Below, piece by piece: positions 3,201 to 57,248 of a DNA stretch of 64,000 nucleotides (position 1 is its first letter; the number at the start of each line of letters is the position of its first letter). The stretch lies in the NCBI GenBank assembly GCA_963930775.1, contig OZ005691.1, forward strand, positions 3,782,001 through 3,846,000, read 5' to 3'. Under the pieces are notes generated by a model. That model did not search any database, was not told where the DNA came from, and saw only the letters and a list, made by a program, of their open reading frames with translations. Both the position numbers and the translations under genes were made by a program. Origin of the DNA: Cliona cf. orientalis (taxonomy: Eukaryota; Porifera; Demospongiae; Clionaida; Clionaidae).

Positions 3201-6200
3201 AATTAAGTAGACTTGCAAGTAGGGACACGCACATTATGCTTTTTAAAGTTCCTATTATGCTATGCTCTAATTCCCAACACCAAATTAATTATGCTTATTG
3301 TTTTGTACCTATTATGCTCTTGGTTCTCTCAATTTTTTGTATTTTGAAACTAATTTCTTTCGAAAATTTGTACGTTATAAAAGCTTTATTTCATAGAAAA
3401 GATAAGCTACGGACATACTAGACTACCTTACTCACTAAACGTTAGAAAAGTGCTATGTACTTGGTCGATTACCTGACTGCCTTATAATTTAATCCTATTA
3501 TGCCGGCATAACAAAACCACCTATTATGCCCAAAGCAATGCCAGCATATTGTGCTTGTCTCTACTTGCAAGGCTCCATGAATGTAGTCTACGTATCATCT
3601 TCCCTTTGAATTTTTACCCAGTAATTTAATAGTCCAGCCTGAGGCATCAAAACTGAATTCTGGAGAAATTGGGAGAATTAGTTAGCTACATGACAGATAA
3701 TCACGACAATAATCTATTATTATGCTTGCAGGCAACACTTCTGAGTTGGAACAGTTCAGCCTGTACAACTACCAAAAACAAAATCCTGCCTACATTTCAC
3801 CGAATGTGGACTGGCCTGACTTAACAACGTGAGTTTACTGGCTACAAAATAGTATACTAGTATTAAATCATGAACACAATGTTAAAGCAATGCTATATAA
3901 TTATAGGAGTGAAGTCACTAGTGTGTCAACCATTGACCAGCCAAACCCTCTCTATGCTTCACAGGTTAGTCATACAACTTCTTTTGATTATAATAATGCA
4001 GCTATATACTACGCACACACGTGCAATTATTATTATTTATTATGGCTTTTAACAGTGTCTGATTAGTAAGTTCCAATTCTGATTAGTAATATTTTCCAGA
4101 ATTTTGAGCAAAAAGTTACAAGTTTTGGCCAGAAATATAAAAATTATTATTGCAAAAATACAAATTGCTATTGTACACACTTTTCTTGATTAATATAGAC
4201 ACATAAGCATGCATGAAAATGGGGTGAAAGCTTGTTTCTTTTGTTTGTCAAATTTTGAAAATTTGCCTGAGCACTCTAAATTTAGTCATATTGCCATTCT
4301 AAATCCTTAATTGTCCTTTTTCCTAGACAGTGACCGGCAGCTTGTTGAAATTGATCAACGAAATCAGAGTAGCAGGCCTCTGCTTGATGATTTTTCTCCT
4401 GTTTCCCGGATCTTGTACTTTTAGTGTCCTTCACGCTGAGCCAAAGTCCCTATTTTAAACATAGTGTCGATATCATATTAGTGCAATGTCAAATAGCATG
4501 CAAGATCACAAATACTTCCAAATGAAGAGGTCCTATTGTACAAATTTGTACACCTTGCCCTAGTCAGGATACAAATTTGTACACCAGTGTACACCTTGGG
4601 CTAGTCAGGATACAAATTTGTACACCTGGTGTACAAATTTGTATCCTGACTAGCCCAAGGTGTACAAATTTGTACACCTTGGTCAAGTTGTACAAATTTG
4701 CATACTGACTAGGGCAAGGTGTACAAATTTGTACACCCTGGTCTGGTCGAGATCTTATAAATATAAAATTGAATAGCTCACAAATTTGAACACCATAGTC
4801 ACTCTAATTAAAGTGCACTACTAAATAACATCAATTCAACGTCCCTGCAGATCACATGCTATGTTTTTTCGATTGTGTTTGTAAATAATGCTACCCGCCT
4901 GCGTTATTGTATTGGATGAGAAATAAATTGCTGTGGCCTAACGGAGGGCTCTTGGAGTTTCATGCATTATCACTGTTCTTTAGATTAGTAGATGGAGGAT
5001 CTCCGATCCAGTGCCACTAGGGTAAGAAAAGTAATACCAGCCTGTATATAGCTGAGCTAGCTAGGGTTGGGAAGTCCAAGACCACCCCACCCCCAATGAA
5101 ACATTGCATGCCCATTGACCCAATCCAATCCCATCTGTTAGCATTTGCCTGCCAGCTCTCTAGTCACTGTAAATAATTTAATCAGCACAAAACTTACTAA
5201 GCTTTCATTGATTGAGTAGCTCTCAGTTGTCTACATGCCATCTCCCCCAATCTTTTGTCTGTATAATTCATACTGGCATTGCTAACGGGTTATCAGTCAG
5301 TGTAAGCATGTCTTCTTGGTCTCATTAAAGTTCTCAGGCAGTCGGATGAAATCTGTATGCAAATCAGTATGATAAATATAAATAATGGGCTAGCATAGGA
5401 TTTTTCAACAAACTGCTGGGATAATTTGGCTACTATTAAAGCTCAGGATACTTTTATATAAACAGCTAAAATTATATGGAAGCTTACCATCCATTAGCCT
5501 CGTACCCAGGCCCTTTGAGGGGGAGGAGGAAAAAGGGCCTGGTACACACTGTATGCGCATGCGTTATTTTCCCAGTAAAAGCTGGGAATTCGTATATCAT
5601 TGGATATTATCCGTATTGCTTCTCCGTATGCTATCCGTGTTATAGATAGTATCGCGGAACTAGCGACCTTTGACCCGTCCGTCTGTGAGGGACCAGAGCG
5701 AAGGCGAGATGGCTGAAACCTTCGAAGAAGCGATGGTGCATGCTCTTGGTTGCATCGGAAAGGCAGGTCTAGCACTTAAGGAGGAACAAAGGAAGGCAGT
5801 GAGGCATATTTTGAATGGTCAAGATACTTTCGTGTGGCTCCCAACTGGTTTTGGGAAATCTATATGCTATGAGTGTCTACCGTTCGCGTTTGATTTCGCC
5901 TTGGGGCGTATACAAAGTTCAGACCTCAAAAGCTTAGTGATAGTCATATCACCATTGAGATCCTTGATGGTGGATCAAGTTGTATCCCTTAAAAAAAGAG
6001 GTGTTTCTGCAGCTATCCTCAGTGGCCATGAAGGTATAGATAAAGATTTGTTAGCTTCAGACACAGATTTGGGCCTTCCAGGGAAGTACAGTCTGGTTTT
6101 TTCTGCTCCTGAAGCAGTAATTGGTTCGGCAAAGTGGCGGGAAAAGTTGCTTACGTCTCCTCTCCATGATAGAGTAGTGGCTGTGGCTGTAGATGAGGCC

Positions 6201-9200
6201 CACTGTGTCTCCAAGTGGTAAGTGTTTAATATAAATAATAGATTATAGTTATTCCCTTTCTTTACATAGGAGTGATTCGTTTAGACCAATTTATGCTCGA
6301 GTTGGGGAGATTCGTGCATTCATCCCACCAGGCACTCCTGTATTAGCTGTAACTGCCACAGTTACCAAAAAAGTGCGACTTGATGTGTGCCGTAAGTTGG
6401 AGATGTCTGAGTACAAATTTGTGTGGGCTTCTCCAGAACGGCCAAACATATATTACGAGGTTCTTCCACGCTCCGATGTTGACACCGATATCAAACCAAT
6501 TGTAGATGACCTTCGCCGCAATAAGCTACAGATGACACGTGTAATTATTTATTGTAGGTCCCTGAATGTGTGTTCGGATTTGTATGCCTACTTTTTATCT
6601 TGCCTTGGTGAGGACAGTTATTTCCCTCCTGATGCTCCTAAAATTAGCGACAATAGACTTTTTGGTATGTATCATGCCAACACCCCAGCCCATAACAAGG
6701 AAGTCATTCTTAACAGCATGCAGAAGGAAGATGGAGTCGTACGGGTAGTATTTGCTACGGTTGCTCTTGGTATGGGTGTCAATCTTGTGGGTGTCAATAG
6801 AGTAGTTCATTATGGAGCACCAGCCTCCATTGACGATTACTTTCAAGAGAGTGGGAGAGCTGGTAGGTCAGGGGAGGCAGCCAAGTCAACGGTATATTGG
6901 AAACCATCTGATGCTCCATTACGTAGAGATACTTTCGATCCTAGAAACGTGGAATTGGCTGCTGTGCGCCACTATTTAGAGAATAATACCAACTGCCGTA
7001 GGCAACAACTGTTGAACTATTTTGATTCTGATTTGTTTAGTACAATACATTGTAATGATAGACTATTATGTTGTGATGTGTGTGCTAGGAATGTAGTGAA
7101 GGAAAGTGTTGATACTGAATAGTAATAATTAAGTTTAACTCTCTGAGTCACTTTCTGCTTCTGAACAGTCTGTAGCATCACTGTCAGATAAATTTCCTTC
7201 ACCTAATGCGTATTTTAGTGCTACTGTTTGTTTTTGTTTCCGTAAAATCCATTGCTCCATTTTGGTCCAATTCAAATTAGATAAAGGATTCTCACTAAAT
7301 TTTTTGAAGTGGTTAAGCTCCCTACCTGTATTAATAGAAAGTATTTTATTTTTGATGAGTACAGCTGCCACCTTAGCAACGTCCTCGTGGTCACTTTTAG
7401 TGCAATGAGCTGATGTGGGTACTGGGACGTTGCTTTCTTGATCAAACCTGTCCCTTATATTGCACAGGGTGGTGACTGAACGAGCTGAACGACTTATTGC
7501 CGTGGCCGTCATGTTGGGTCCCATGTTGTTTATGATCTCCTTAAAAAGCTTATTCATATGTTCGTTGAAAAGATCACAAGGGATGTTTTTCCCCATCCCA
7601 CCATGGGTATTAACAAATCTCTCCCACTTTAGTTGATGTGATAGTGATGGTGGTAGAGTAGCTAGCTGGAACTGCATTCGTAGGGCCTCCCACGCATATT
7701 TCGTTCGCCCAGAAGCATGGAAGTGAAGAAGAAAAACTTTCCAGCAGCATTCCATTCTATCACCATCCCCAAAACCCCATCCATTTTTGAATTCTAGTGC
7801 AAGGGAGGCGAAGTGGCAAAATACGCGAGCATAGTTATACACTGCGTCTTTTGTTTTTGCTATTGGCTTGTGCAGTAATGCCTCCTCGGTTATTGACAAT
7901 GTGTTGATCACTTGCCGTGAAAGCTCTGCAATAAATTGGGATTTTTGTTCCTTTGTTTTGAGTGGTGGTAGGTGTTTTGGTTTGTCATTAGGAGAGTCTA
8001 TTCCCAGCAAATTACAAGCATATGCCACGTAGTGACCTTTCAATACCGTAAACAGAACATCAGTGCAGGCATTCATGTCCTTCTTGGGATCCTTAGCTTT
8101 TGGTAGTCGTCCAAGAAGACCGCAAAGGTGGTAGAATGTGCCATGATCGCTTGATGATGCCTTAAATAGCTTCTTCCATATCACCTGTGATGGTATACTT
8201 AAAATAACTAGGAACTTCAAGGATGATAATAAGGTAGGATGTGTGTGTGTGTACATATTATGTGAGTACATACATGTTTACATATGTGTATCTGTGTGTA
8301 TGTGTGAGCATGTGTGTATGTACATGTATGTGTGTGTGTATGCACGTGTGTGTTTGTTGGTAGTTGCCTAGCAACCAAAGTTTTATAGGCAATCTACCGG
8401 CTATGGGAAGGGGGTGGGTCATCATAAAGAGGTCAACTACCAACAAAATTGTTATCTGACAGTAATTGGGGTGCATTCAACCATGCATCTCATGCACCCC
8501 AATTACTGTCAGATAACTATTATGTGTGTGTGTACATGTTGCTAAAGTTTCTATGCAGTTGTGTGCATTTGATGTTTAAGATTGAGTCACCTTTAAAAAG
8601 CACATGAGGGCATGCCAATCTTCTGTTATTGGTTCTACTAATTGAAGCCTCTCTCTGGGAGTGTCCCCATCCATCAAGTGGCGCTGTGCACAGGCCTGTC
8701 TCTCGCAGGTGAGTTGATCTCCGCCAGAGAGTACTCTTTTGTCGCATGGAAAATCTTCCCCTAAGTATCCCTGCATTGCTTGCATAATTTCCACCATATC
8801 TGCATGTCTAGCTTCATTTTTGGTCAACACATCTAAAAAATATGTATCAGATTTTTCTGCCATACTATCAGAATATTGATGAGGAATGTGTTGTGGGACC
8901 ACTTCAGCACACTGGTTAAGGCATTTGATGTATGCACACAAAATTCTTCCTGCTAGCACTGTGAGATTCATTTTAATGGCATTGATTTCCTCTGCAGTTG
9001 GCAAAAATGATGAAGCATCAAGCTTATGCAAGTTTTCCGTGCTACCGGTTGTTGAAAGAGAGGAATCATACGCACGAGGACGGATGACTAGAAGTGAATA
9101 CATGTGGACTAATGAATGATGATGATTGGACCTAATGTCGCGGACATCCTTGCGTTTATCCACATTATCACCAATAAACTTGATAGGTAAGCCACTAGAA

Positions 9201-12200
9201 ATCCACTTTTTCAGTGGGGCTTCGTGCATGCTGCTGATGTCTGATACAACCTTTAGTGTACCAGTATAACTAAGTGCTACACCGACATGATTGAGCCTGG
9301 CATAGACCTGTATGATTGTATAATTATTTAATTCAATTATCAGCATGTATGTATATGTACAATATGCAGTAACAAACCTGCTTTTGGATGTGTGAGGTGA
9401 AAAGCACCAGGGAAAGTAACGTTTGCAGACCTACCATTTCTCGGTTTCGCTCCTTCAAAAGGACTGCAACTGCTGTGCATATGCCTGGAAAGTGGAAGCT
9501 ACCATGCTTACGGTCATTTCTTGAATCACTTCGACCGACGATCAGTTTCAAGAGCTCCAACAAAAGGGGTGATTTCGCTTCCATCTCACCAATATACTTG
9601 GACCATGTAAACTCTTGGAATTCTTTGAGTGGTGCTTTGCGGAAAGAAGTTGGCTCTGCCCGTCTACAAAGTGCTGTACACTCTTCCTCAATTAGATTGA
9701 ACACCTTATGGACTACAACACCGCATAAGCCTTGATGAGCGATGACTGCCTTGGCAATGGTTTCAGTATTACCACTGGCAAGTGCTCGTCCTAAACGATT
9801 TAGGGAAGGATCAACTGAACAGGTGTATGGTGAGAGTCGGCTAGGGGAAGATACGATTATCTGAAATTTAATGTTCAACCAAGTTTGGAATATTATAGTA
9901 TCAACTTATGGTCAGTTCTTACTTGTACAGACTTATTAGTGCCTTGCATCGTAGGAATGTCTGTATTATTTATTGTTGAAATAAACAGCTGTAGTGCATA
10001 TCATAGTGTTTTATTGTTACCTGGTTGGAGCGTATTTTGTTTCAGTGTTTGAAGAGGGCTACGTGGATGGTCTAGATGTATTATTGTTGTATGTAATTAT
10101 CACAATCATGTATGCTATGTATGGTCTAATACGTACCATTAGGAAATAATCGCTTGCTAGCACCAAAACGCCGTTTGCAAGGAGGTTGGGCTTGACTCGT
10201 AGCTGGAGATACACCTGGACCACTGCTAGTATCCTTGGGTCTCTTTAACTGCCTGCCAATGACTATGTAGGGGATGACAGACAGCCCATGTGATTGTCCT
10301 AACTACAGCTCATGTACATGTACATCTATTGTACCTGTACATGTTGCTTCCCTATAGCTTGTCTTAGCGATTACTCTTAACCGGTTAAGTTTATCATACA
10401 AGGACTTTGCAGAGGACATGCAGTTTCGACAAGCGTACATGGGAAATCCATCATCAGCATCAACTGGAACTTCAAATATGGACCTCAACATAGCAGGAAG
10501 TTGTTTCTCAAGTGATGACGGCGAAAACAAAGCTGTCATATGTTTCCCTTCCTGCCTTTTGCGGCAAAAACGGCATGTATACTCGACTGGTGGTGGTTTG
10601 GACATGGTTTCTCTGATCTGCTACGCGGTACACGCGCGCGTGCGGTCAGCGGTAAGGAACACGGAATTGCATGACCGTGTCACGTATTCCGTAAAATGAT
10701 CCACGTGGCAGCTAACATTTCCGGAGGATTATACAGAGAAATTTACGGAACTTTCGACGCATGCGCATACAGTGTGTACCAGGCCCTTTTTCCTCCTCCC
10801 CCTCAAAGGGCCTGGGTACGAGGCTAACCATCCATTAACTTGGATACCAACGGTCGATCAAGACAGGATTGCTGCACACAGCTGCTGTTCGAGGATATGG
10901 ATTTGAATTTCAATCACGTGACTATCATGCGCTACATATACATGTATTATGTATAGCCAGACCACACCTCCTTTTTTGAGACAGCAGCTGCAGCCAGTGA
11001 AACTTGGAGAGGGCTCATAGGCCTGGACGGCCTGCTGATGCACGATCATAGTAAGTCCTTGTAAAAGTAAATAGCCATAATAGATGGTAAATACTCGGAT
11101 CCGATGATAATAATTTATATTTGATAGCTAGTAGAAAGCACACATTGAGGCTAGACATAGCTAGCTAGTTTCTCAAATTTTACAGAAGCTGGGAAGAAAA
11201 TCATGGAGCCGCCTCGAGAATCTACTACCAGGACTTGAACCGATGGTCACAGTTGCTCCAAGAACAATTGGGACAACCAACTCATGATCAATGAAAGATG
11301 ATGATAACTTCACTTCAAAATGGAGGCCGCACAGTGATGTGCACTCTTTAGCAGGACCCAGGATATAATTGTAAGTATAACAACATTTGGCGTGTATTAT
11401 TAAAGTTCTCGGCTGTTTTGTAATACTCTTATCAGCGTTTGGTTAGCTACACCCTTGAGATAAGATATGGGTCTGGCCCAGAGCTCGGAACTTTTTGCAT
11501 CCACCCTGATCCAGCTATATATGTGTGACTAAGCTTAATGACCCTGTTCCACTATTGTAGAACCGAGTAGGGTGGCTAGGTTTGCTGAATCAACAGCATG
11601 ACCAACAATGGCAGAATGCCCTGTTTGTTTTGGCTATAGTATTATTCATCTGCTCTGGAAGGTGTACAAATTTGTACACCCCATCACACTTATAACCTTG
11701 ACTGGGTGTACAAATTTGTACACCCCATCACGCTTATAACCTTGACTGGGTGTACAAATTTGTACATTCACTTCCAGATTGTACAAATTTGTACACTTAT
11801 GGAATAAACTACATCAAAATGACCATTGTGCTTTTTATTTATCTAGGTTGTTTCTTCTGCTGGACAGACTGTCAGAAGTATAATACATCCTGAAGAAAAT
11901 CCTGCAGCAGGGCAATAAATCTTGAACTACCTCAGCAAATATTTGCACTTGTTCATAAATTTTTAACTACAGTAGTTTTTTTCAGACAAGCACTTTTCTG
12001 GTGCTGTTTTTTGTTCAGTTTTGTGTGATAATTGGCATAAAATTCACTAATCAGAATTGGAACTTACTAATCAGACACTGTTTTTAGGAAATTGAGCTTG
12101 ATATGCCACCTGAAGAAACTGATGTGGAGACAACTTCACGAGTTTCAGGGCTCTCAGGGCTCTCCTCAGAATCACAAGTATACTTCTCTAGCTTTCCCCG

Positions 12201-13392: not shown

Positions 13393-16300
13393 CTAGCCTG
13401 ACAATGATTCTTTTAGAGTCCTTGCAAGTTCTCCTTTTTCAATGTCGTGGAGGACCCTTGCCAGTGTGGCCCATGTTGTAGGCTTCCTCCCCCTGCCTTC
13501 CAGCCACTCCTGAAGGATGTGACGGTTGATATTCTCCCCGTTTCTCTGATACTGATGCTCCAAGTCATCAATGTGAGCTGAAGTGTGTTCCCGAAGGAGC
13601 TGTGCACCAAAGTTCTGGTACTTGGAACCAATTTCACGAGGAATGTTGATGTAGCGATCACCAGCTTTGAAGTTCAAAAGTTCAGGCATAGTTGGAATTG
13701 AACCTGTAAAAATGGCATAATAAGAGTATCATCATTATAAAAACACTTTAGGACAGCCAGTATTATCTGCTACAATAGAATATACCTGCTTGCATTTCTG
13801 TTGTATGTTTATCCAACCAAAATAGCTGATTTGGAGAAAACTCATCTCCCTCTCCCTCATTGAAAGTGCAGATCCAAAATCCATCTCCGATGGTAGCAGG
13901 ATGAGGTTCTCCAGCTCCACAAGGACAGAGAAAGGCAAAAGATGGTGTCGAGTTCGTATAGCCTAAGGCGATGTTAGCCTTCTGCAGCCCAGCAGTGATA
14001 GCACGTTTGATTGTCGGGCAGACCTTGCATGCAGCTTGCTTTGAAACTTTCACGTGTAGCTCAAACTGAAGCAAGGTGTCGATGAGTGTCACAGTGCAAG
14101 GTACTTTGACCCCACGAATGGTGAACTGGACGCAGTTGCGGTGAAGGCAAGTGGGAGTGACTGATCCAGCTGACGGCATCTTCAACTTCCATGGTCCCGG
14201 GAAGTGGTTCTCTGGTGAAGTCAAGAAACAGAGAAGAGCACAGAAGATGCCACGACGTGGAGGGCCATCAGTGAAGTGGAGGACAAGTGGTGTGAGATGG
14301 TAGTCATGTGACAGGCGATACTTTGACACATCGTCACGGCCAAGCATTCGAAGAAGGCATGGAACGAAAAATTTTCCTTCAGAATAGTTGGCAAAAATGA
14401 AGAGCTTTCGGCAGAAAACTAACAGGTGTTTTGGCATAAAGAGGCGAGGCACATAGTGCTTTTCGAAATCCTTTTGAGATAGAAAGTCGACAGTGACGAG
14501 AGCATGACTGAAGAACTCTTTCCATGCCTTATCTCCAGCAGTGCGCTTTCTCAAATCGTGATGGACTTTTACGAGCTCAGAGACTTTGTCCAACAGCACC
14601 TGTGGGTTGGTGAAGACAAGGTCTGGAAGAATATCAGGATAGTAGAGGATCAGAGACAGCTCATCGAGGTACATTAGAGCTGCTTCTAGGGTGCTGTCAT
14701 CAAAGTGAAGCCTGCGAGCAACTTCAAGGCATTCATTCTTGTGGAGAAGTCCACGCTGAAGAACGTGAGTGATTTCATCCAGCACAATCTCTAGAGCCAT
14801 CCACGGAAGAGGAATTCGCCTTGGTTTTGATCTGCGCACTCTGTTCCGAACCACTTGTGCCATATCCTCTTCTTCCTGGCCAGGGCACCGTGCATTCATA
14901 GGGAAGAGTATATCCTCAGTATCTACCTGGTAGTAGATGATTTCATCTTTGAAGGCTGGTAGAAGCATTTCTCGCAGCTTCTGATTTTTTGCTTCCCTGG
15001 ATTCCTTGCACTTTCCCTCCTCGTCTTTATGGGTGCCAACGACCACAATCTGTGGAGCATCATCACCTTTATCTTTGCTGGAGCGATGAGAGTGGAGTGA
15101 TCGAAGGCCTTGCTGGAGGAGCTGCTCAGTGGTCAGGTCGGATTCATAAGGAGTGCCCAAGGATTTCCCATTCTCGTAGTACTCGATCATTGGACGGCTA
15201 GAAAGCTCTTCCGATAGTTTGATGACGAACACGATCATAGACATCCTTTTCAAGAAGATGGGTAGGATCTCATGAAATTGAGGCTGCCCTCCACAATCAG
15301 TGATGAGGACCTTACGTAGGAAGGAGATTGGGTCTTCTGACTCAGAGCACTTATCAATCAGCTCAAACATCTTGTCAAGGACCTCCTGGATCACTTTGAT
15401 CACTTTGGGATCGACAGAAGCAGTAGATGGTTGTGCTGCAATACTCGAGCGATCAGCACATTGCTCACTGACTTGGACTGCAGACTGCTTGGCACCTGGG
15501 CTTCGTGGACTTTGTACTTGTTCTCCGCCACTCTCCTCCTGGTTGCTACCTTCCTCACTGGTTGGATCTAGAGCTGGAGTTGCTGCTCCCTGTTTCAACA
15601 CCTCGATCAGTTCCGGTCCGAGTCCCAATTTCGACAGCCATGCACAGATCTTCAGTCGTTGTTCCGACGTGTATTTGAGCCATATCTCCTTTGACAACAG
15701 CATTTGAAAGATGGTTACGGGGCGGGTGGCTATGGGGGTACTGTGTCGAGCTTCGGGTGTTTTTTCTCCTGCGACAACATTCATTGTGCAGGTTTTACCG
15801 ACACCTGCACTTCCGTGGAACAACATTTTATCCACGGAAGCATCTACGAAGCCAAACTTCATTGAGACCTCAAAAAGACGCCGTGATTCACTGGTACCTA
15901 TAAAGATGTGCCATCAATATAATTTTCTAAAAAAAAGCTAACCATTAATTTTATGCTTTTAATATAATTTTAGTGGCAAATCTTTCAATACTCAAGCTGC
16001 ATTCTAGTTTTGTCGATATACTGATAATAACGTTACGTATATTATGTGCCTGAATCATTATACTGTTCTGTATAGCTCGGTAAAGGAATACATTTTAGGA
16101 GACATATAATTTACTCCAAAAGAAAATTTTGTGTATATATACATGTACATTATTATTGTATATTGAACTTTGACTTGTAGTACAAATAAAATATGTGGGT
16201 GACAACACGTATGATAATTTCCCATATAGTATTATAAGTTGTGCTTGCCACATGCAAAACCCACATTCCGTATCAGTTGTGTTCGTCACATGATTGCCAT

Positions 16301-29362: not shown

Positions 29363-32300
29363 CTAATAGTTGGGTGTATGAATGTTGAGGCTGGTTTCAA
29401 TTTTACTTGCTAGTTCTCCCATTTCAATGTCATTGAGTACCCCCACCACCGTACCCCACGACGTAGGCTTCCTTCCTTTGCCGTCTAGCCACTCTTGAAA
29501 AATCTGGCAGTTGATTCTCTCTGCATTCTCATGGAGTTCTCTCTCCAGTGATCTGATGTATCCAAAGCTTTCGTGGAGAAGCTGTGCTCCAAGATTGTGG
29601 TACTTTGTTCCCACCTCCCGAGGTATGTTGATGTGACTGTCACCAGCACGAAAGCGAAGCAGCTCAGCAATCGTCAGAAATGGACCTACATGTAAAAACG
29701 TGTATGAATACAGATTTGTAGTTTGGAAATTTGGAAGAGGATACGGGCTTAGAATGACCATAAGCCAATTCTTTAGCGTATGACAAGTATAGAAGCAATA
29801 ATGTTATGGCCTAGGATGATAAAATAATATATGATAGCCTCAGTTCAAAATAATACCTGATTTTTCTTCTAAAGGAATGTCTCCATCTAACCACAGCTGC
29901 TGATTTGGTGAAAACTCGTCTCCCTCTCCCTGATCAGAAGTGCAGATCCAAAATCCATCTCCAATGGTAGCAGGATGAGGCTCTCCAGCTCCACAAGGAC
30001 AAAGAAAGGTAAAATATGGAGTCAAGCTAGTGTAGCCTAAGGCAATGTTAGCCTTCTGCAGCCCAGCAGTGACAGCACGTTTGATTGTCGGGCAGACCTT
30101 GCATGCAGCAGGCTTTGAAACTTTCACGTGTACTTCAAACTGAAGCAAGGTGTCGATGAGTGTCACAGTACAAGGTACTTTGACCCCAGGAATGGTGAAC
30201 TGGACGCAGTTGCGGTGGAGGCAAGTGGGAGTGACTGATCCAGCTGATGGCATCTTCAACTTCCACGGTCCCGGGAAGTAGTTCTCTGGTGAAGTCAAGA
30301 AACAGAGAAGAGCACAGAAGATGCCACGACGTGGAGGGCCATCAGTGAAGTGGAGGACAAGTGGTGTGAGATGGTAGTCATGTGACAGGCGATACTTTGA
30401 CACATCATCACGGCCAAGCATTCGAAGAAGGCATGGAACAAAATATTTTCCATTGGCAAAATTCGCAAAAATCAAAAGCTTTCGACAAAGTTTCAAAAGA
30501 TTTTCTGGCATAAAGAGACTAGGCACGTAGTGCTCTTTGAAATCTTCTTGAGAAAGGAGTTCGACAGTAACTAGAGCATGACTGAAGAACTCTTTCCAGT
30601 GCTTATCACCAGCAGTTAGCCTAGCGCATTTTCTCAAATCATGATGAACTTTCACGAGCTCAGAGACTTTGTCCAACAACACCTGTGGGTTGGTAAAGAC
30701 AAGATCTGGAAGAATATCAGGATAGTAGAGGATCAGAGACAGCTCATCGAGGTACATTAGAGCTGCTTCTAGGGTGCTCTCATCAAAGTGAAGCCTGCGA
30801 GCAACTTCAAGGCATTCATTCTTGTGGAGTAGTCCACGTTGAAGAACATGAGTGATTTCCTCCAGCACAATCTCTAGAGCCATCCACGGAAGAGGAATTC
30901 GCCTTGGTTTTGATCTGCGCACTCTGTTCCGAACCACTTGTGCCATATCCTCTTCTTCTTGGCCAGGGAACCTTGCATTCATAGGGAAGAGTATATCCTC
31001 AGTAGCTATTTGGTAGTAGATGATCTCATCTTTGAAGGCTGGCAGAAGCATTTCTCGCAGCTTCTGATTTTTTGCTTCCCTCGATTCCTTGCACCTTCCC
31101 TCCTCGTCTTTATGAGTGCCAACGACCACAATCTGTGGAGCATCATCACCTTTATCTTTGCTGGAGCGATGAGAGTGGAGTGATCGAAGCCCTTGCTGGA
31201 GGAGCTGCTCAGTGGTCAGGTCGGATTCATAAGGAGTGCCCAAGGATTTCCCATTCTCATAGTATTCGATCATTGGACGGCTAGAAAGCTCTTCTGATAG
31301 CTTGATGACAAACACGATCATAGACATCCTTTTCAAGAAGATGGGTAAGATCTCGTGAAATTGAGGCTGCCCTCCACAATCAGTGATGAGGACCTTACGC
31401 AGGAATGAGATTGGGTCTTCTGATTTAGGGCACTTATCAATCAGCTCAAACATCTTGTCAAGAACCTCTTGGATCACTTTGATCACTTTGGGATCGACAG
31501 AAGCAGTAGATGGTTGGGCTGCAATACTTGAGCGATCAGTATGCTGCTCACTGACTTGGACTGCAGACTGCTCTGGTTGAAGAGCTGTGGCACCTGGACT
31601 TTGTGAACTTTGTACTTGTTCTCCACCACTCTCCTCCTGGTTGCTACCTTCCTCACTGGTTGGATCTAGAGCTGGAGTTGCTGCTTCCTGTTTCAATGCA
31701 TCGATCAGTTCCGGTCCGAGTCCCAGTTTTGACAGCCATGCACAAATCTTCAATCGTTGTTCCGACGTGTACTTGAGCCATATCTCCTTTGACATCAGCA
31801 TTTGAAAGATGGTTATCGGGCGGGTGGCTATGGGGGTACTGTGTCGAGCTTCGGGTGTTTTTTCTCCCGCAACAATGTTCATAGTGCAGGTTTTGCCGAC
31901 ACCTGCACTTCCGTGGAACAACATTTTATCTACGGAAGCATCTACAAAGCCAAACTTCATTGAGACCTCAAAAAGACGCCGAGATTCACTGGTACCTACA
32001 CACAAGAATGGTGTTTAGCATAAGACTGCAGGATTGAGCTTAGTCAACATCAGCTGCTCTCTCTGCATGTATGCAATAATAATCTGTTTGTGTGCCACGG
32101 ACTATTTTTGACTTCATCAGTTTGAAGTAATGAAATCATCCCATTGATATAATAATATTATAGTTGGCATTAAGTTTGATAATAATAATAATTATACAGT
32201 ATTGTGTATTGTACATGTGTATAATATCATGTGGAAGTACGTTTTTATCTGCAGGGAGAAACTTTTCATCATTTTGCCACGCAAAAACTTTATCACACTA

Positions 32301-44736: not shown

Positions 44737-45127
44737 CACTAACAGATAAAAATATACTTCAACTTGAATTGTGAAGTATAATACATGTACACAGGTTTTT
44801 CTGAAATAAACTAGTACGTTTGTACATGTACATGCTATGCTGACCCCCAATGATTATTCTATTTTGTGATTATCCAATATCGTCGTATGTTCACAGGAGT
44901 ATCAAGCTATAGTCTGCAATAATACTGTGAGTAGCATACCTTGGTATTACCCAAAACCAATGCAAAATCTACACAATACTGATAATTACTAGGGTACATA
45001 CTCTCACATTTGACCACTTCCTCAATGCATGAATAATAATTACTACATGTCATATGATCGGAAAAAGGCACAGGCTTGAACAAGCATACTATAGATTAGA
45101 AATTTAATAGCAAATTCCACCAGGATC
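44737..45127. other. Spacer between PEPD and the papain-fold genes
   Basis: PEPD 3' UTR with AATAAA at 44805-44810, then AT-rich sequence that should include the promoter of the following gene. No frames or repeats to report. Confidence 0.5.
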
Positions 45128-45856
45128 ATGTCAAAAGAACAATATCGTGAAAACCATAACATCCGTTCTTCGATTCTCTCTTCAGTTATTAGTTCTGGGT
45201 CTGGTTCCAGTATTTCTCCCTTGTCTAGCCTTCAAGCAACAGGACAAGCAGCAGCATCAGCCGCTCAAGGAATCCATCTGCAGCCCCAAGCTGAAAGAGA
45301 CAATGAAAATCCCTCAGATACTGTGAATCCAACTTGTACACCTTTTGTGCAGCAAGTGCAAACCAATCCAGTCTATGGGTCTCTGGTGCATGCCATTTCA
45401 GAGTATGAGGTAAGACTTGTCCATGGCAAAAAGCAGCTCCACTGGTTTCTCCTGGTCAAGATGTTTCGATCTAAACTACCGTACATGACTCTAGAGATTT
45501 CAACGACCGACCTATGTGATCTGATTCCAATTTTGCGCTCTGTTAGTAGTGATCATGAGAACAAAGAAATTTCCAAATCACAGGACCTGGTTGAAGATCC
45601 AATGTGTATCACGGATACTGGTATTTACAAAGGAGCTTTGTATGATTTATGCCAAATTGCCGACAGAGTTGTCGAAGAAATGAAGAGCTACAACTTAGTA
45701 ACCAGTAACTGTCAGCATTTTTGCAATAACCTATTGAGGAAGATTGGAAAGAAAACGTACCCCATGACAATTGGTCGCATGACCAAAGAAAAGGAATTTG
45801 ATTATTATTCTAATATTATCTCAAGCGATGTTCCAGCTTTGGTGTGCCCAAATTAA
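45128..45856 (+). CDS. Permuted papain-fold (LRAT/PPPDE-like) protein, no death domain
   Basis: Intronless, 242 residues. After a low-complexity Ser/Gln-rich N-terminus (to about residue 75) comes a globular region. It has LVHGKKQLHWFLLVK near residue 100 (candidate active-site His) and LVTSNCQHFCNNLLRKI near residue 193 (candidate nucleophile Cys in an NCxxFCN motif). The order His then NC-x-x-F-C, with a helix after the Cys, is that of circularly permuted NlpC/P60 enzymes such as LRAT and PPPDE proteins. These act as acyltransferases, thioesterases or peptidases. No signal peptide or membrane segment. Substrate unknown. It lies 517 bp upstream of a paralogue on the same strand. The family assignment rests on motif pattern only. 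Confidence 0.65.
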   Translation: MSKEQYRENHNIRSSILSSVISSGSGSSISPLSSLQATGQAAASAAQGIHLQPQAERDNENPSDTVNPTCTPFVQQVQTNPVYGSLVHAISEYEVRLVHGKKQLHWFLLVKMFRSKLPYMTLEISTTDLCDLIPILRSVSSDHENKEISKSQDLVEDPMCITDTGIYKGALYDLCQIADRVVEEMKSYNLVTSNCQHFCNNLLRKIGKKTYPMTIGRMTKEKEFDYYSNIISSDVPALVCPN

Positions 45857-46372
45857 CTCGTAGTAACGGTTACGTTTTTCGATCCTTTAATAATAATAAT
45901 AATAATAATAACTGTGCAATGCAATGATTGTCAGATAAGTCAGTGTATATACATGTTGGTGTATTGTTTCTTTTTGTTGTTGGATCATGGTGAACTGTGA
46001 TCGAATCTGATTCCCGTTCTATGGTGTGCACTGACATCGACAAGGCCATGTGGGGTCTGGGGACAAGACTAGTTGTTAACAGATGCCAAATTCCAGTCAT
46101 GTGTATGGCATGCATGTCCCAGCTGTGAATCTGCAGATTATAATTAATTACATCATAGACGTAGCTAGGGCATCCAATGATGTAAACACCATTTATCTCG
46201 TTTATACAATGTGGTATGTTGTTTGTATAGTTTTATCTATGTTGGTTTTGGGGATTGATCGATCCTCCCCTATTATATCAGCCACACCTTACACGAAATT
46301 CTAGTAATAGAGTGTCTCTGCATACAGGGCCTGAGGCGGTTCAAATTTTTAATAGAGTTGCAAGGCAACAAT
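45857..46372. other. Spacer between the two papain-fold genes
   Basis: Contains an (AAT)n run at 45886-45912 and a possible 5' UTR splice acceptor TGCATACAG at 46319-46327 before the second gene. No other feature seen. Confidence 0.45.
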
Positions 46373-47392
46373 ATGAGCTCATCGTTTCATAGCGTGTTAT
46401 CAAAGGCACCAAGTTTTGGATCGAGTCCATCAAGTTTCAATGGTACATGTTTGGCAAGCGGTAGCTTTTCCTCTCCAACTGCAAGAAAGGATGCAGCACC
46501 TGACAGAATCTCTGGCCGTCCATTTGTTGAAATGATAAAGGAACATGGTAGCTATAAGCTTCTGTCACGATCACCAACTCATTACAACGTTAAACTTGTC
46601 CATGGAACAACTACCAATCTTCACTGGTATATACTTGTAAAGATAAAAGATTCTGATTTGCCGTATATCACATTTGAGATTACAACATCAAATATGAAGA
46701 ATTTGATTCAAACCATCCGAAATGTTATACCTGGTGGCATATGGGGGCATATTTTGTTACAAAACCCTCAAGATATTGGTACGTATGAAGGAACTCTTCA
46801 TGACTTGTGTTGCCTCGCTGATGAAGTAATTACGGACATGGTAACCTACCACCTTGTGAGCAATAACTGCCAGGATTTCTGCAACAAGTTACTACAGAAG
46901 ATGAACATCATAGACAGCCCATTCCCCACAACATTCCACATGGACAGTACCAAACCAGATCATGAACGGTCCACATTCGACTGCTTCAGTGTTGTCCTGC
47001 ACAAGGCTTACAATGTGGCACTAAAGAAAGCACCGGGCGTGGTAGCAGCTGCAGGGGCTGCTGTAGTGGGAGGAATCGTGGGTGCTCCAACGCATGAATA
47101 TGACCACAAACAACTGCTGAACAATCTCCAACCTATCTGTAAAATTCTAAAGTCGCAGGCTTCAAAGTGGAAGGAAATCGGCAGGAAACTTTCCATAAGT
47201 GGTGAAATACTGAGCAAAATAGAAACCGAAAATGGTGGACTACAACACCAATGCTTGCGTGAAATGCTTAGGGAACATCTCTCACAGGTTCACTCGTATG
47301 AAAGTTTAGCTGATGTAATTGGCGAATATAAAGAGTCGCTGTCGGTAAAAATTCGTAACTTAACAGCACATGGACAGCTAACAATAAACTAG
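46373..47392 (+). CDS. Permuted papain-fold domain fused to a death domain
   Basis: Intronless, 339 residues, start at the ATG of MSSSFHSVLSKAP. The enzyme-like domain repeats the motifs of the upstream gene: LVHGTTTNLHWYILVK near residue 75 and LVSNNCQDFCNKLLQKM near residue 163. A Gly/Ala/Val-rich linker (APGVVAAAGAAVVGGIVGAP, residues about 221-240) could be a membrane-inserting helix. The C-terminal 80 residues form a death domain (ASKWKEIGRKLSISGEILSK, CLREMLREHL, SYESLADVIGEY). A papain-like effector joined to a death adaptor suggests recruitment to a signalling platform, perhaps with the death-domain Roc-COR proteins nearby. That partnership is inference. Confidence 0.7.
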   Translation: MSSSFHSVLSKAPSFGSSPSSFNGTCLASGSFSSPTARKDAAPDRISGRPFVEMIKEHGSYKLLSRSPTHYNVKLVHGTTTNLHWYILVKIKDSDLPYITFEITTSNMKNLIQTIRNVIPGGIWGHILLQNPQDIGTYEGTLHDLCCLADEVITDMVTYHLVSNNCQDFCNKLLQKMNIIDSPFPTTFHMDSTKPDHERSTFDCFSVVLHKAYNVALKKAPGVVAAAGAAVVGGIVGAPTHEYDHKQLLNNLQPICKILKSQASKWKEIGRKLSISGEILSKIETENGGLQHQCLREMLREHLSQVHSYESLADVIGEYKESLSVKIRNLTAHGQLTIN

Positions 47393-52171: not shown

Positions 52172-55100
52172 TCACTGATCATGCGGTTCAAGTTCAGGAT
52201 CTTCAATTCGCTCGTGAACAATGTCATCATCATCAATGATCTCATTGATGACATCATTGCCTTGATTTCGTCTGCACTTCCAACCAGCACTGAGACAAGA
52301 CTTGACCAAACTCCACACAACAATGACACAAAATTGAGCAAAAGTGATTCCAATTGACACCATAAGCAATTTTGACCTTGATTCATAAGAGTCCCACCTA
52401 TACAGAGTTCCAGAACTCAAGATAATAAGGTTCAGTAAGGTAGAACTTTCTAGAATTCTCACATCAACTTGGTTGTAAACATTTTTGATCGATATCAAAT
52501 AAAATAAAAGGGCTATGAACAGGAACAGTGCAAACACATTCAGTTCTGGATTTTCCACTGAGGTTACCGTGAGTAGAATCAGGAGTATTCCTCGAACAAG
52601 AAGCATTATTCCAAACCAGTATTGGTGCTTATACTTCAAAGGAGAGAAGTAAGCATCATAGACAGGAGCTAGCTTGTTGATCCACTTGAGTGGCCTTAGA
52701 TTAGACACTCTTCTCAAAGGCTGAATGAACAGAAGCAGGAGTGTGTAGGGAAGCCACAGGAACACAAGAGTAGCAATGGCTGCTACGAAAAGGTAAACAT
52801 GAGGGCGCTGGCAGTAGCGTAGGTTTCCATCGAGGTACCACACGGCATAGGAAGTGTTCTGTGGGTACTGTGCTATCACTGCAACTGAGGTGGCATCTAT
52901 CACAGTACGAAGGAGCTTCATGTAAGATAAAAGGAAGAGTGTGACTAGAAGAGGAACAGCTCTACTACCGATAAGGTTAGTGAGGCGAGAGGAGTAGTGG
53001 CAAGCAATAATGATAACACCAGCAATGGCCCAGATGTAGAATGGGAACAGAAACTGTAGCCATGACTTCCAATAAGCATCCAGTCCAACAAAGAAGCAAG
53101 TCTCGATTCCAAAATCCAAGTTGAGCCAGGCAATAAAAACTTGAAGAAATATGAATAAATAATTTGTTCCAATGTCTGCGGGAAAGAGTATTATTTTATA
53201 GGCCCATACAATGTTAGCATAGAAGATGACTCCATTAATGAGTCCTTGAGTGGCAGTGAGGTTGAGTGCAAGGATCAAGAACGCAAGGAGGACACCAGCA
53301 GCAGCAAAGGCAAGCAGGAGTGCCACGCTATGACTGTTAGGACATTCAATGCACCGAGAAGATCCAATTGCCAGGCTAAAGCTGTCCATGCAGGCACCAC
53401 ACAGGATGCCGGTTCGGTTGGAGGCACACTGCTTGCTGGGATCATCTCCAATATTGATTGTTTTGTTGCCTGAGTTGCAGTAGAGTAGGGGACAGAATCT
53501 GTTGTACATGATACCAGTGCTATGACCCTCATTGAAGGTTCCATCCACCCACACAGTACCATTCCACTGCAGGAGACCAGTTTTGTTTTTTACTAAACAA
53601 CTGAAGCCGTTATTAGCCAAGACAGGATAACAGCTGCATGTGGTTTCATCATGATTTAGAATCAGTCCTGGAGGGCAGCCTGGGAGTAAGGTGATGTTTA
53701 TGAAAATTGGGGTTGTTAGGAGATTAGAAAGGATACAACCAGACTGATTACACAAATAATGGGATATTAGAGAGTTGAGTCTCTCTTTATAGCTAAAGAT
53801 ATCATAATCCGTTGATTCATTGTTTATGTAACCAGATACTGGCAGAGATGATGTTTGTAGCAATAAAAGTTCATAATCACGTTTTGAGTAAACTGTATAG
53901 TTGAAAGGAATACAATTTTTACTGCCGATTACCAGCTGCGATTTGTCTCGTTTTGAGAGAAAATCAGAATAAAGGGATCTGGCATGGATCGTACCAACTG
54001 TAGTTCCAAAGTCATAACCCACTATACATGCAGGTAATGTGATAGTTTCACCACGATAAACACTGGTATTAGTGAAAATGTACGAGATATTAGCACACTG
54101 TGGTTTACCATTGGAGTCACAGAGACACACACGCTGAGGAGCAGAGGATACTGGAGATAGGGTCTTATTGAATTTGAAGCCAGGGTCAAAGGAGATGTTA
54201 ACGTATCCATCAGGTTCTTTACCTTGAATAGAACAGTGAGGTTTTCCTTGTTCATTCACATAGCCTATGATACCTCCAGAACATGAGTAATCCCTTACAC
54301 TTGCTCCATACATGTGGTGACCAACACCATATTGCGCATAGTTTCCTATAAAAGATACTTTAGCAGAGTAGTCCGTGATCATGAATATACAAGGTTGTGA
54401 AGACTGAGAATACACTGCTCCACCAACATCAAATGCTGTGTTATTTATGAACTGAATACTTGACTGATATCCCACTGTGGTCATGATTAATGATGGCATG
54501 GTATTATGGAGAGCACCTCCTTGAAATGCAGAGTTGTTGAAAAGGAGTAATTTGGAATAATTGCCAACAATGATAGAGGGGTGGACACCTGCATCTATAT
54601 AAAATGCACCACCTCTCACTTCTGCAGAATTTGTGATGAAATTTATTGATTTATTAGTGTTGATGATAATGGTGCTATAAGTAAAATGTATTGCTCCTCC
54701 ATATGTTGCTCTATTGCTGTAAAATTCAATACCACTTGTGTTCACGTGAACAGTTGAATTCACTAACCTTAGAGCTCCACCACCTTTAGTTGCACAGTTG
54801 TGACTGAAAATCAGGCTTGCTTCACTGTCAATAATCAATGTTCCACTTGAGAGTATAATTGCTCCACCACCTTTGGCATGGTTGTATGTAAATATCACAT
54901 GTGATTCAGCACCCACAGTAATCATTCCATCCCACATGAACACTGCTCCACCGGAATATGCAGCAGCATTATTCATAAAGACCACCCTTGCTTTATCACC
55001 AATGTGCATCATTGCATTTTTCCCATACACTGTTCCTCCACAACCACCGCATGTTAGGTTGACAAAGCACACAGTTGCACCTCTTGTGATCTTAAGTGAA

Positions 55101-55888
55101 GATTTGATCTCAGACTGAGTGGTTTCTAGATACACTGCTCTACTTGATGAATTCGAAATGGATATTATCCCTGGAGTACCGTTGGTGAAGTTAACATTTC
55201 CTGCTAATGTTACTACACTAGAAAGGGCAGTGATAATTGAAAAAAATTCATGTCTGTATGACTGAAATGTGCTATTGCTCACAATTATCCCATCACTAAG
55301 ATTACTCATAACAAAGCAGTTTTCTTTGAATATACAGTTGTCCAGTAAAGCTTGTGAGTGTCTGCCTGTAATATTGATGAAGGATAACCTTTCATTTATG
55401 CCAGGGTAGCCATGGAAGTTGGAACTTTTCACTGTAATGTGGCTCTCTGTAAGATATATCACAGGACAGCTCATTGTCAGGGTTATAATGTTTACAAAGC
55501 TGACATTGAAGAACCGAATAACTGTGCACTTGGGTTCGCCAACAAACTGATGGTCAATGATGACGTTCTCTCTGGAGTCTGCAGCTCCTTTCATGACAAA
55601 TGAGTGAAGATCATGTACAACCAAGTCCTTTGTATAGTTGTGGACTCCACACATGAACATCAGCGTTATATTGATATGGTCTGGTGAAAAGAGCTCACTG
55701 CTATGCTCGACTAAGTAGTCCATTGTGTGACAGAGCTGACCAGGTGGACAGCTGCTGTTTCCATGGCAAGAGCTGAGAGGCTCTGTAGGTGAGATGTAAT
55801 AGACCACATCCTTCTTAGTCTCAGCTAGTACATAAATCAGCCCAAATAATAATATTATTAAGATGGGGGAGAGAAAGAAAGTCTTCAT
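52172..55888 (-). CDS. Beta-helix (PMP-repeat) multi-pass membrane protein
   Basis: Single-exon gene, 1238 residues, starting MKTFFLSPILIILLFGLIYV (signal peptide); the first GTG in frame is ignored. The ectodomain is rich in N-glycosylation sites (NIT, NVS, NSS, NYS). Residues about 280-495 carry seven repeats of the form FxxN...GGA[IVLF], for example FMNNAAAYSGGAVF and FYSNRATYGGAIHF, as in bacterial polymorphic membrane proteins and other right-handed beta-helices. A cysteine-rich juxtamembrane region follows (TCSCYPVLANNGFSC, CASNRTGILCGACMDSF, CIECPN). Residues about 850-1190 hold nine to ten hydrophobic helices starting VALLLAFAAAGVLLAF, then a short acidic tail. Similar multi-pass proteins occur in marine invertebrates, but I know of no function. 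The tail ends LEPHDQ. The duplicate reads on to DTPRPITIPASAKYTK, so copy A has lost about 15 residues through a 1-bp shift near 52183. A receptor or adhesion role is inference. Confidence 0.85.
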   Translation of the reverse strand: MKTFFLSPILIILLFGLIYVLAETKKDVVYYISPTEPLSSCHGNSSCPPGQLCHTMDYLVEHSSELFSPDHINITLMFMCGVHNYTKDLVVHDLHSFVMKGAADSRENVIIDHQFVGEPKCTVIRFFNVSFVNIITLTMSCPVIYLTESHITVKSSNFHGYPGINERLSFINITGRHSQALLDNCIFKENCFVMSNLSDGIIVSNSTFQSYRHEFFSIITALSSVVTLAGNVNFTNGTPGIISISNSSSRAVYLETTQSEIKSSLKITRGATVCFVNLTCGGCGGTVYGKNAMMHIGDKARVVFMNNAAAYSGGAVFMWDGMITVGAESHVIFTYNHAKGGGAIILSSGTLIIDSEASLIFSHNCATKGGGALRLVNSTVHVNTSGIEFYSNRATYGGAIHFTYSTIIINTNKSINFITNSAEVRGGAFYIDAGVHPSIIVGNYSKLLLFNNSAFQGGALHNTMPSLIMTTVGYQSSIQFINNTAFDVGGAVYSQSSQPCIFMITDYSAKVSFIGNYAQYGVGHHMYGASVRDYSCSGGIIGYVNEQGKPHCSIQGKEPDGYVNISFDPGFKFNKTLSPVSSAPQRVCLCDSNGKPQCANISYIFTNTSVYRGETITLPACIVGYDFGTTVGTIHARSLYSDFLSKRDKSQLVIGSKNCIPFNYTVYSKRDYELLLLQTSSLPVSGYINNESTDYDIFSYKERLNSLISHYLCNQSGCILSNLLTTPIFINITLLPGCPPGLILNHDETTCSCYPVLANNGFSCLVKNKTGLLQWNGTVWVDGTFNEGHSTGIMYNRFCPLLYCNSGNKTINIGDDPSKQCASNRTGILCGACMDSFSLAIGSSRCIECPNSHSVALLLAFAAAGVLLAFLILALNLTATQGLINGVIFYANIVWAYKIILFPADIGTNYLFIFLQVFIAWLNLDFGIETCFFVGLDAYWKSWLQFLFPFYIWAIAGVIIIACHYSSRLTNLIGSRAVPLLVTLFLLSYMKLLRTVIDATSVAVIAQYPQNTSYAVWYLDGNLRYCQRPHVYLFVAAIATLVFLWLPYTLLLLFIQPLRRVSNLRPLKWINKLAPVYDAYFSPLKYKHQYWFGIMLLVRGILLILLTVTSVENPELNVFALFLFIALLFYLISIKNVYNQVDVRILESSTLLNLIILSSGTLYRWDSYESRSKLLMVSIGITFAQFCVIVVWSLVKSCLSAGWKCRRNQGNDVINEIIDDDDIVHERIEDPELEPHDQ

Positions 55889-57248
55889 TTTTTTCACTAT
55901 ATTATCAGCTCTATTTTTTCAATACAGTGCTTATCAAGAACTTAAAGGTGCATGCACAGACACACAGCTAGCGAGGCTCAGTAGTATTGACTTAAGTACA
56001 GCTGGTCAAGCGTGGGTGCATGCATACATATATTATTATAATATTATACGTATATATATAATAATATAATATTATTTTAAATAATAAAATAATATATAGC
56101 TAGCTAGTAAAAAATAAACAGTCATTCAACCCCATAATATTATTATTAATTGGTTATCTCAATTTCATTTCGACATAACAAAGTTTGTTGGAGACTCACT
56201 GGTTGCTATTTATTTTTTTCAGCAAGCAGAGTGATTCAATGCATGCAGAGGAGGGTAAATTATTCTTAATGGCCGATTAAACCTTTAAGGTACTCATTTT
56301 AATGTTTACTAATTTCGTACAGTGTGTGTGTGCGTGCGTACGTATGTAGAGAAATTAAGAAGCAGAGCTAATTACAGATAGTATGGCAGCAAATAGTACA
56401 CCCCCTATCTGTGATCTGGGAAACATGTTACTCTTCTTCATGTTTTCCAGAACTACGATATAATTATGCTCTATTCGACAAGGACAGTCCCCCACTAAAT
56501 CACTAATGCCAAGATCAAAAGGCTTCAGGAACCTAAATTATAATTTCGACCATCTTCCCTTAGTTAATTCCCCTCAGTGCCTAGCAAACAGCAGGGAACT
56601 TATACTTTATAGCATGTTACATGGTGGGCAAGAGGCTCCCCTGCTGGGTTTTTTTTGGTAGCTGTATCCTACCTATATATGCCATACATCAAAGCTACCA
56701 CCAGCTGAGGTACAGCTACTATAATGTCATAATATTATACAGGTACCTGGCCCAGCTCAGTGGACACCACATTTTAGCTTAATTTGAGAAATATGTGCCC
56801 CTCTACAAGTTAGTGCTGTATGAGCATTTTAGCCCTGTGGCCAATAATATTATTGTTGAATTCCAAGCTACTAGCCACTGAGGGGAAATTAAGGAAGATG
56901 GTCACAATCAATTAACCATGATTAATAATTGGTCACTAATTTAGGTTACTGATCTTGGCATTAGTGATTTAGTGGGGGAGCCCTTGTTAACCCTGCAGAG
57001 ATTCGTACAGTGTCATAGTTACTGTAGTATCCTGCGTAAGTGCCCAATTGCAAGGTCACTTGAACAACTTGCAATTCTGGTCCATATATGGGTACTTATC
57101 CAGGATACTACAAACTTACCGGTGGACTATGCAGCTACTACGAAAAATTTAGCTATGACAGACAATTAATTCCGAGAGTGCATGCATGCGCCCTGACAAT
57201 TCTTTTGCTACTATTGGATGTAATTTTTATTGACTAGGATGTCTAGCG
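55889..57248. other. Spacer between duplicated blocks
   Basis: Promoter side of the membrane protein gene, then very AT-rich sequence (56027-56100) and a fold-back element (56488-56979). No gene seen; small open frames have no family features. Confidence 0.6.
56488..56979. mobile_element. About 490-bp inverted-repeat element
   Basis: TCCCCCACTAAATCACTAAT with the following GCCAAGATCA is matched in inverse at 56950-56979. The complementarity continues more weakly inward (AACCTAAATTA, GACCATCTTCC, CCCCTCAGTG) and perhaps outward (ACAAGG). Target duplication undefined. Non-coding. Confidence 0.65.

Follow-up and report, generated by a model that had tools for sequence, protein, structure and literature searches.

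The demosponge Cliona cf. orientalis carries, within the 64,000-nucleotide stretch of DNA analyzed here (the window; contig OZ005691.1, positions 3,782,001 to 3,846,000), a 5,332-bp element at window positions 5495 to 10826 that pairs a RecQ-type helicase gene with a gene encoding a zf-AD and DUF6589 protein. We interpret this element, with a probability of roughly 0.87, as an autonomous AcademH-type DNA transposon whose zf-AD and DUF6589 protein is a DDE-type transposase. The assignment to AcademH follows the published description of helicase type and target site duplication (TSD) length rather than a sequence comparison with Academ transposases, and we infer that DUF6589 is the Academ-type transposase. 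The element is well preserved and probably autonomous, and it probably represents a fresh example of AcademH, not a new system.

Ends and target site of the element

The inverted arms of the element (5494-5564 and 10757-10827) are 100% complementary over 71 nt, which corresponds to terminal inverted repeats (TIRs) of 70 bp plus one flanking base. The inverted ends of the original prediction are thus present and perfect, but they are longer than the "about 65 bp" given there. The predicted perfect 9-bp duplication is found as a direct repeat, ACCATCCAT, on either side of the element (Table 1). The host sequence around the element is itself repetitive, the left flank having 16 matches genome-wide including the window's own, and at all six of the other host-repeat places that were fetched the two flanks are joined with a single copy of the target. 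The 9-mer is intact at four of these empty sites and is interrupted by a 3-bp insertion at two. Because the empty sites join both flanks with the target present once, the ends of the element and its TSD are fixed. Tandem arrays of the palindrome GGTGTACAAATTTGTACACC lie to both sides of the element, at 4547-4743 and 11661-11766.

Table 1. Coordinates of the element's features in the window. TSD, target site duplication; TIR, terminal inverted repeat.
Feature	Position	Strand	Basis
Left 9-bp TSD, ACCATCCAT	5486..5494	.	Target present once at 6/6 fetched empty sites
Left TIR, 70 bp, TAGCCTCGTACCCAGG...	5495..5564	+	100% complementary; same TIR in 24 paired short copies among 27 loci
Helicase exon 1 (motifs that we take to be Walker A, DEAH box and RecQ-like aromatic loop)	5709..6217	+	GT-AG splice, Pfam
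Helicase exon 2 (Helicase_C, RecQ_Zn_bind), stop 7120-7122	6270..7122	+	Splice model, Pfam
Final exon of the DUF6589 gene, with CDLFNEHMNK and the candidates for the third acidic residue (D604/E608); stop 7135-7137	7135..8184	-	
Exon of the DUF6589 gene that bears GDN (D208) and GDQLT (D358)	8591..9307	-	
DUF6589 gene, upstream exon, 161 aa	9378..9860	-	
zf-AD exon, includes the start codon; 3' splice boundary approximate	10336..10605	-	PF07776, E 2.8e-9
Right TIR, 70 bp	10757..10826	-	100% complementarity to left arm
Right 9-bp TSD, ACCATCCAT	10827..10835	.	Direct repeat; empty sites

The two genes of the element

Splicing of two GT-AG exons gives a helicase of 453 aa, the length that had been predicted, with Pfam matches to DEAD (6.7e-19), Helicase_C (4e-14) and RecQ_Zn_bind (8.5e-8). 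Pfam lists neither an HRDC nor a winged-helix match in the 453-aa protein, as the original prediction had also stated, and it lists no Helitron domain in the proteins of the element. Helitrons are not known to have TIRs or TSDs, and they possess an HUH nuclease; the element resembles them in encoding a helicase, and differs from them in its TIRs and TSDs and in having no Helitron domain listed.

The partner gene is convergent with the helicase gene, 12 bp separating the two (7122 to 7135), which agrees with the predicted layout of two convergent spliced genes. Three of its GT-AG exons are open and give a firm 749 aa. Pfam matches DUF6589 (E 2.8e-53) in the partner and zf-AD in its N-terminal exon, so its description as a zinc-finger DUF6589-like protein stands. 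Its predicted length of 911 aa was not reproduced: splice windows of limited extent were enumerated into 1,404 GT-AG models, none of which reached that length. With the zf-AD exon added and the three firm exons fixed, full length is 844-884 aa, a range rather than a single value because the first splice junction is ambiguous. Positions 8238-8540, within an intron of this gene, hold a TG-rich microsatellite together with an inverted repeat of 34 nt and may be a small insertion of later date.

Several other open frames lie in the window. Two single open frames on the minus strand (13766-15913 and 29843-32014; 716 and 724 aa) are alike over at least their first ~50 residues and have weak matches, below the Pfam cut-off, to Roc in both and COR-A in one; they may be duplicates of one Roc-COR GTPase-like gene. 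Two further minus-strand frames, of 1,248 aa (52175-55918) and 874 aa (61107-63728), contain Chlam_PMP-type repeats and possibly encode large repeat-containing proteins that are secreted or lie at the surface. On the plus strand, at 45095-47389, two frames have partial matches to the PPPDE peptidase (Peptidase_C97), only the first above the cut-off, and the second also has a weak Death domain.

Short and two-gene copies in the genome

The genome searched comprises 216.8 Mb in 149 contigs, and the pairing counts given below cover this one genome. A query with the left end returned at least 41 matches (the best 40 of 930 first-look candidates were scored), a lower bound on copy number. Both ends were sought at 27 loci and a pair of ends was present at 24; two of these (L067 and L068) are the same site in reverse complement, leaving 23 independent. 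All but one of the 24 paired short copies are 613-647 bp long, and their TSDs are an exact 9 bp in 17, an exact 10 bp in two, 9 bp with one mismatch in three, and lacking in two. Every copy with resolved ends starts TAG[CT]CT, which supports the shared ends that had been anticipated.

Nine two-gene copies, including that of the window, have TSDs, six of 9 bp and three of 10 bp. The copies with TSDs CACTGATCA and ATGTATGCTG belong to one family, 99.3-99.4% identical, and those with ACCTAGTCTA, CATTCAACAC and ATCAAATCT to another, ~98.9-99.9% identical, all with clean ends. Clean ends are also seen in the copy with GGGGGAGGG, which has a low-complexity flank, and in those with CTAAAATTT and ATAGCAACA. 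Since copies ~99% identical occur at different sites in both families, the unit moves whole, and two related families show recent movement of complete two-gene copies. Fourteen two-gene or DUF6589 places were opened, five of them without a resolved end pair: at D31, L076, L077 and L081 no paired ends were found, and at L083 the boundary is not fixed. Across five diverged copies the inverted ends measure ~49-97 bp, lengths that come from seed counts and are not all exact.

The nuclease of AcademX elements is of the XPG type. The genome has only four matches to XPG_I, so there is no sign in it of an AcademX family.

Pairing of the helicase and DUF6589 genes

Queries with the helicase and with its partner returned at least 120 matches (best 93 of 430 candidates scored) and at least 81 matches (best 60 of 454), respectively. 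Among the matches listed in the close search there are 39 partner loci, of which 36 have a helicase within 3 kb, convergent in 36 of 36. Two of the three loci with no listed helicase were opened; L076 does have a helicase, and L077 is truncated and has none. The Pfam DUF6589 model gave 122 matches in 102 clusters, and at least 60 of these clusters have a listed helicase, again always convergent (60/60). The other 42 have none among the matches listed; five of them were opened, and a convergent helicase was found in all five, at ~21-52% identity per matched piece. Conversely, 20 of 80 helicase clusters have no adjoining DUF6589 cluster among the matches listed, some of which do pair in the close search. 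The predicted co-occurrence of the two genes is therefore widespread in this genome. Convergent pairing holds in every lineage opened, down to ~21-35% partner identity, the exception being the truncated L077.

Loci L080, L081 and L082 form a deep DUF6589 lineage, ~21-35% identical per piece, in which the convergent helicase is again present; at L080 and L082 the inverted ends, whose lengths by seed count are 81 and 97 bp, start TAGCCTCGTCCCCAG, and the TSDs are 9 bp long. Locus L031 (C4:11303500-11312400) has a pair of DUF6589 genes from different lineages, ~45-59% and ~24-40% identical per piece, on the same strand and ~2.5 kb apart, with a helicase just beyond the second (C4:11312595).

The histories of the two genes are correlated. 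Across 16 loci their identities give a Mantel r of 0.88 with near-identical pairs kept, and none of 5,000 permutations was as high; r is 0.78 over the 117 pairs left after removal of pairs with at least 90% helicase identity and of the outlier D32. One mismatch, between L012 and L043, where the helicases are 93% alike and the partners 72%, speaks against strict co-inheritance.

Selection was assessed from substitution rates. Compared over 370 codons with the copy at C5:7340054-7341207, the helicase has a dN/dS of 0.27; two further close pairs give 0.48 and 0.21, and a close pair whose members have stop codons gives 1.34. For the DUF6589 gene, the close pairs that have it give 0.24, 0.62 and 0.82. 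Silent sites are saturated in distant pairs, where dN is 0.17-0.48 for the helicase and 0.25-0.57 for DUF6589. Together these values suggest long-term constraint, with mixed evidence in the short term.

These data bear on whether the helicase could be a passenger gene, captured once and with no role in transposition, which we regard as very improbable. The close-pair dN/dS ratios are not uniformly low, and short copies without the helicase have moved (23/24 are 613-647 bp), as a passenger would allow, although the helicase could have been supplied in trans. Against a passenger stand the pairing seen in every lineage opened other than the truncated L077, the correlated histories, and the helicase dN retained by distant pairs despite saturated silent sites.

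Candidate catalytic residues

The original prediction proposed that the GDN, GDQLT and NEHMNK blocks of the partner could form a DDE triad, and the acidic residues of these blocks are strongly conserved. An alignment of 30 rows of relatives, which by our count represent 21 genome places in the locus list, retains D208 in all 12 rows that cover it, D358 in 22 of 22, D604 in every one of the 30 rows, and E608 in 29 of them. This conservation of D208, D358 and E608 fits a putative D-D-E triad; D391 and D604 are equally conserved. Six deep loci were also compared, one of which (L032) is among the 30 rows. D391, D604 and E608 are kept in all six, and three have G in place of E390, which speaks against a catalytic role for E390. 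By profile alignment, L082 has H at the position of D208, and D208 in L081 and D358 in L080-L082 fall outside the match; by eye, L080 and L082 have YDNLN and VGDQLTCK blocks at the corresponding places. The proposed acidic residues are largely conserved in the deepest relatives.

Pfam gave no DDE-family match for the partner by sequence. Of two alignments used in a sequence-profile search of the PDB, the first returned three weak unrelated matches (E 0.12-1.4) and the second none. No DUF6589 relative turned up when viral contigs and prokaryote genomes were scanned by pattern with the last-exon alignment.

Discussion

The combination of TIRs, a RecQ helicase, a DUF6589 partner and 9-bp TSDs that the original prediction described is present, but the proposal of an undescribed mobile system is not supported, given what is already in print. 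A RecQ helicase has been reported in Academ (PMC3627910), and the literature describes AcademH as helicase-encoding with TSDs of 9 or 10 bp (PMC10045372). The original prediction had pointed to Academ as a lead but was unaware that the TSD length agrees. AcademH is found in three fungal phyla (PMC10799480), and the paper that defined it names animals and fungi in its title (Kojima 2020, Mob DNA 11:15). The element agrees with AcademH in that it is a DNA transposon bounded by TIRs, encodes a RecQ-like superfamily 2 helicase and makes TSDs of 9 or 10 bp. No difference emerged in the passages of the published description that were compared, and the convergent layout, zf-AD and DUF6589 lie outside those passages. 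AcademX belongs to the same superfamily according to the passages compared, which describe it as nuclease-encoding with TSDs of 3 or 4 bp (PMC10045372); the element shows neither this nuclease nor the 3-4 bp TSD.

It is improbable that the element instead belongs to a separate, undescribed superfamily in which a TIR element with a DUF6589 transposase gained its RecQ helicase in an event unconnected with Academ. Such an origin would accord with the lack of any mention of DUF6589 found in the literature searched, with an Academ assignment made by description and not through a sequence link between DUF6589 and Academ, and with PDB and Pfam searches that returned no known transposase. The helicase type and the 9-/10-bp TSDs nevertheless agree with AcademH as published in the parts compared, and it would be less parsimonious to posit another family with this rare combination.

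Kolobok elements duplicate TTAA, against 9-10 bp here. This counts against a KolobokH-like element, with a Kolobok transposase beside its helicase, which we consider scarcely credible. The likeness lies in the gene pair: in the passages compared, KolobokH of fungi has a RecQ helicase beside the Kolobok transposase, and the red-alga element Kolobok-1_CCri has its helicase on the complementary strand (PMC9587614). The C/DxxH motif described there as common to Kolobok and four other superfamilies (PMC9587614) is absent from the window protein, with zero matches between D358 and E608, taken as the catalytic residues, and DUF6589 is the sole confident domain of the region.

For the AcademH reading we propose the following mechanism. 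The zf-AD and DUF6589 protein, as a DDE-type transposase with a putative RNase H fold, would bind the 70-bp TAGCCTCGT... ends and then cut there. The ends would be joined to a target cut with a stagger of 9 bp, sometimes 10 bp, and host repair would fill the stagger to produce the duplication. Strand opening, whether at the transposon ends, in the target or in the gapped product, would be the task of the RecQ-like helicase that the element itself encodes, and this helicase may be needed often enough to have been retained as a linked second gene. A bolder and rather unlikely version makes the helicase an obligate partner that sets the length of the duplication and the route of transposition; the latter might be partly replicative, with DUF6589 nicking the ends, unwinding freeing single strands, and joining giving the 9-/10-bp stagger. 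If the helicase were such an obligate partner, DUF6589 would be the unnamed catalytic family behind an entire class of transposons in animals and fungi.

The analysis ties DUF6589, an unnamed Pfam family, to a probable transposase role. With ~100 DUF6589 loci (102 clusters) in one genome, at least 60 of them helicase-linked, together with near-identical two-gene copies and short clean-ended derivatives, Cliona cf. orientalis offers a good system for asking why such a transposon retains its own RecQ-like helicase.
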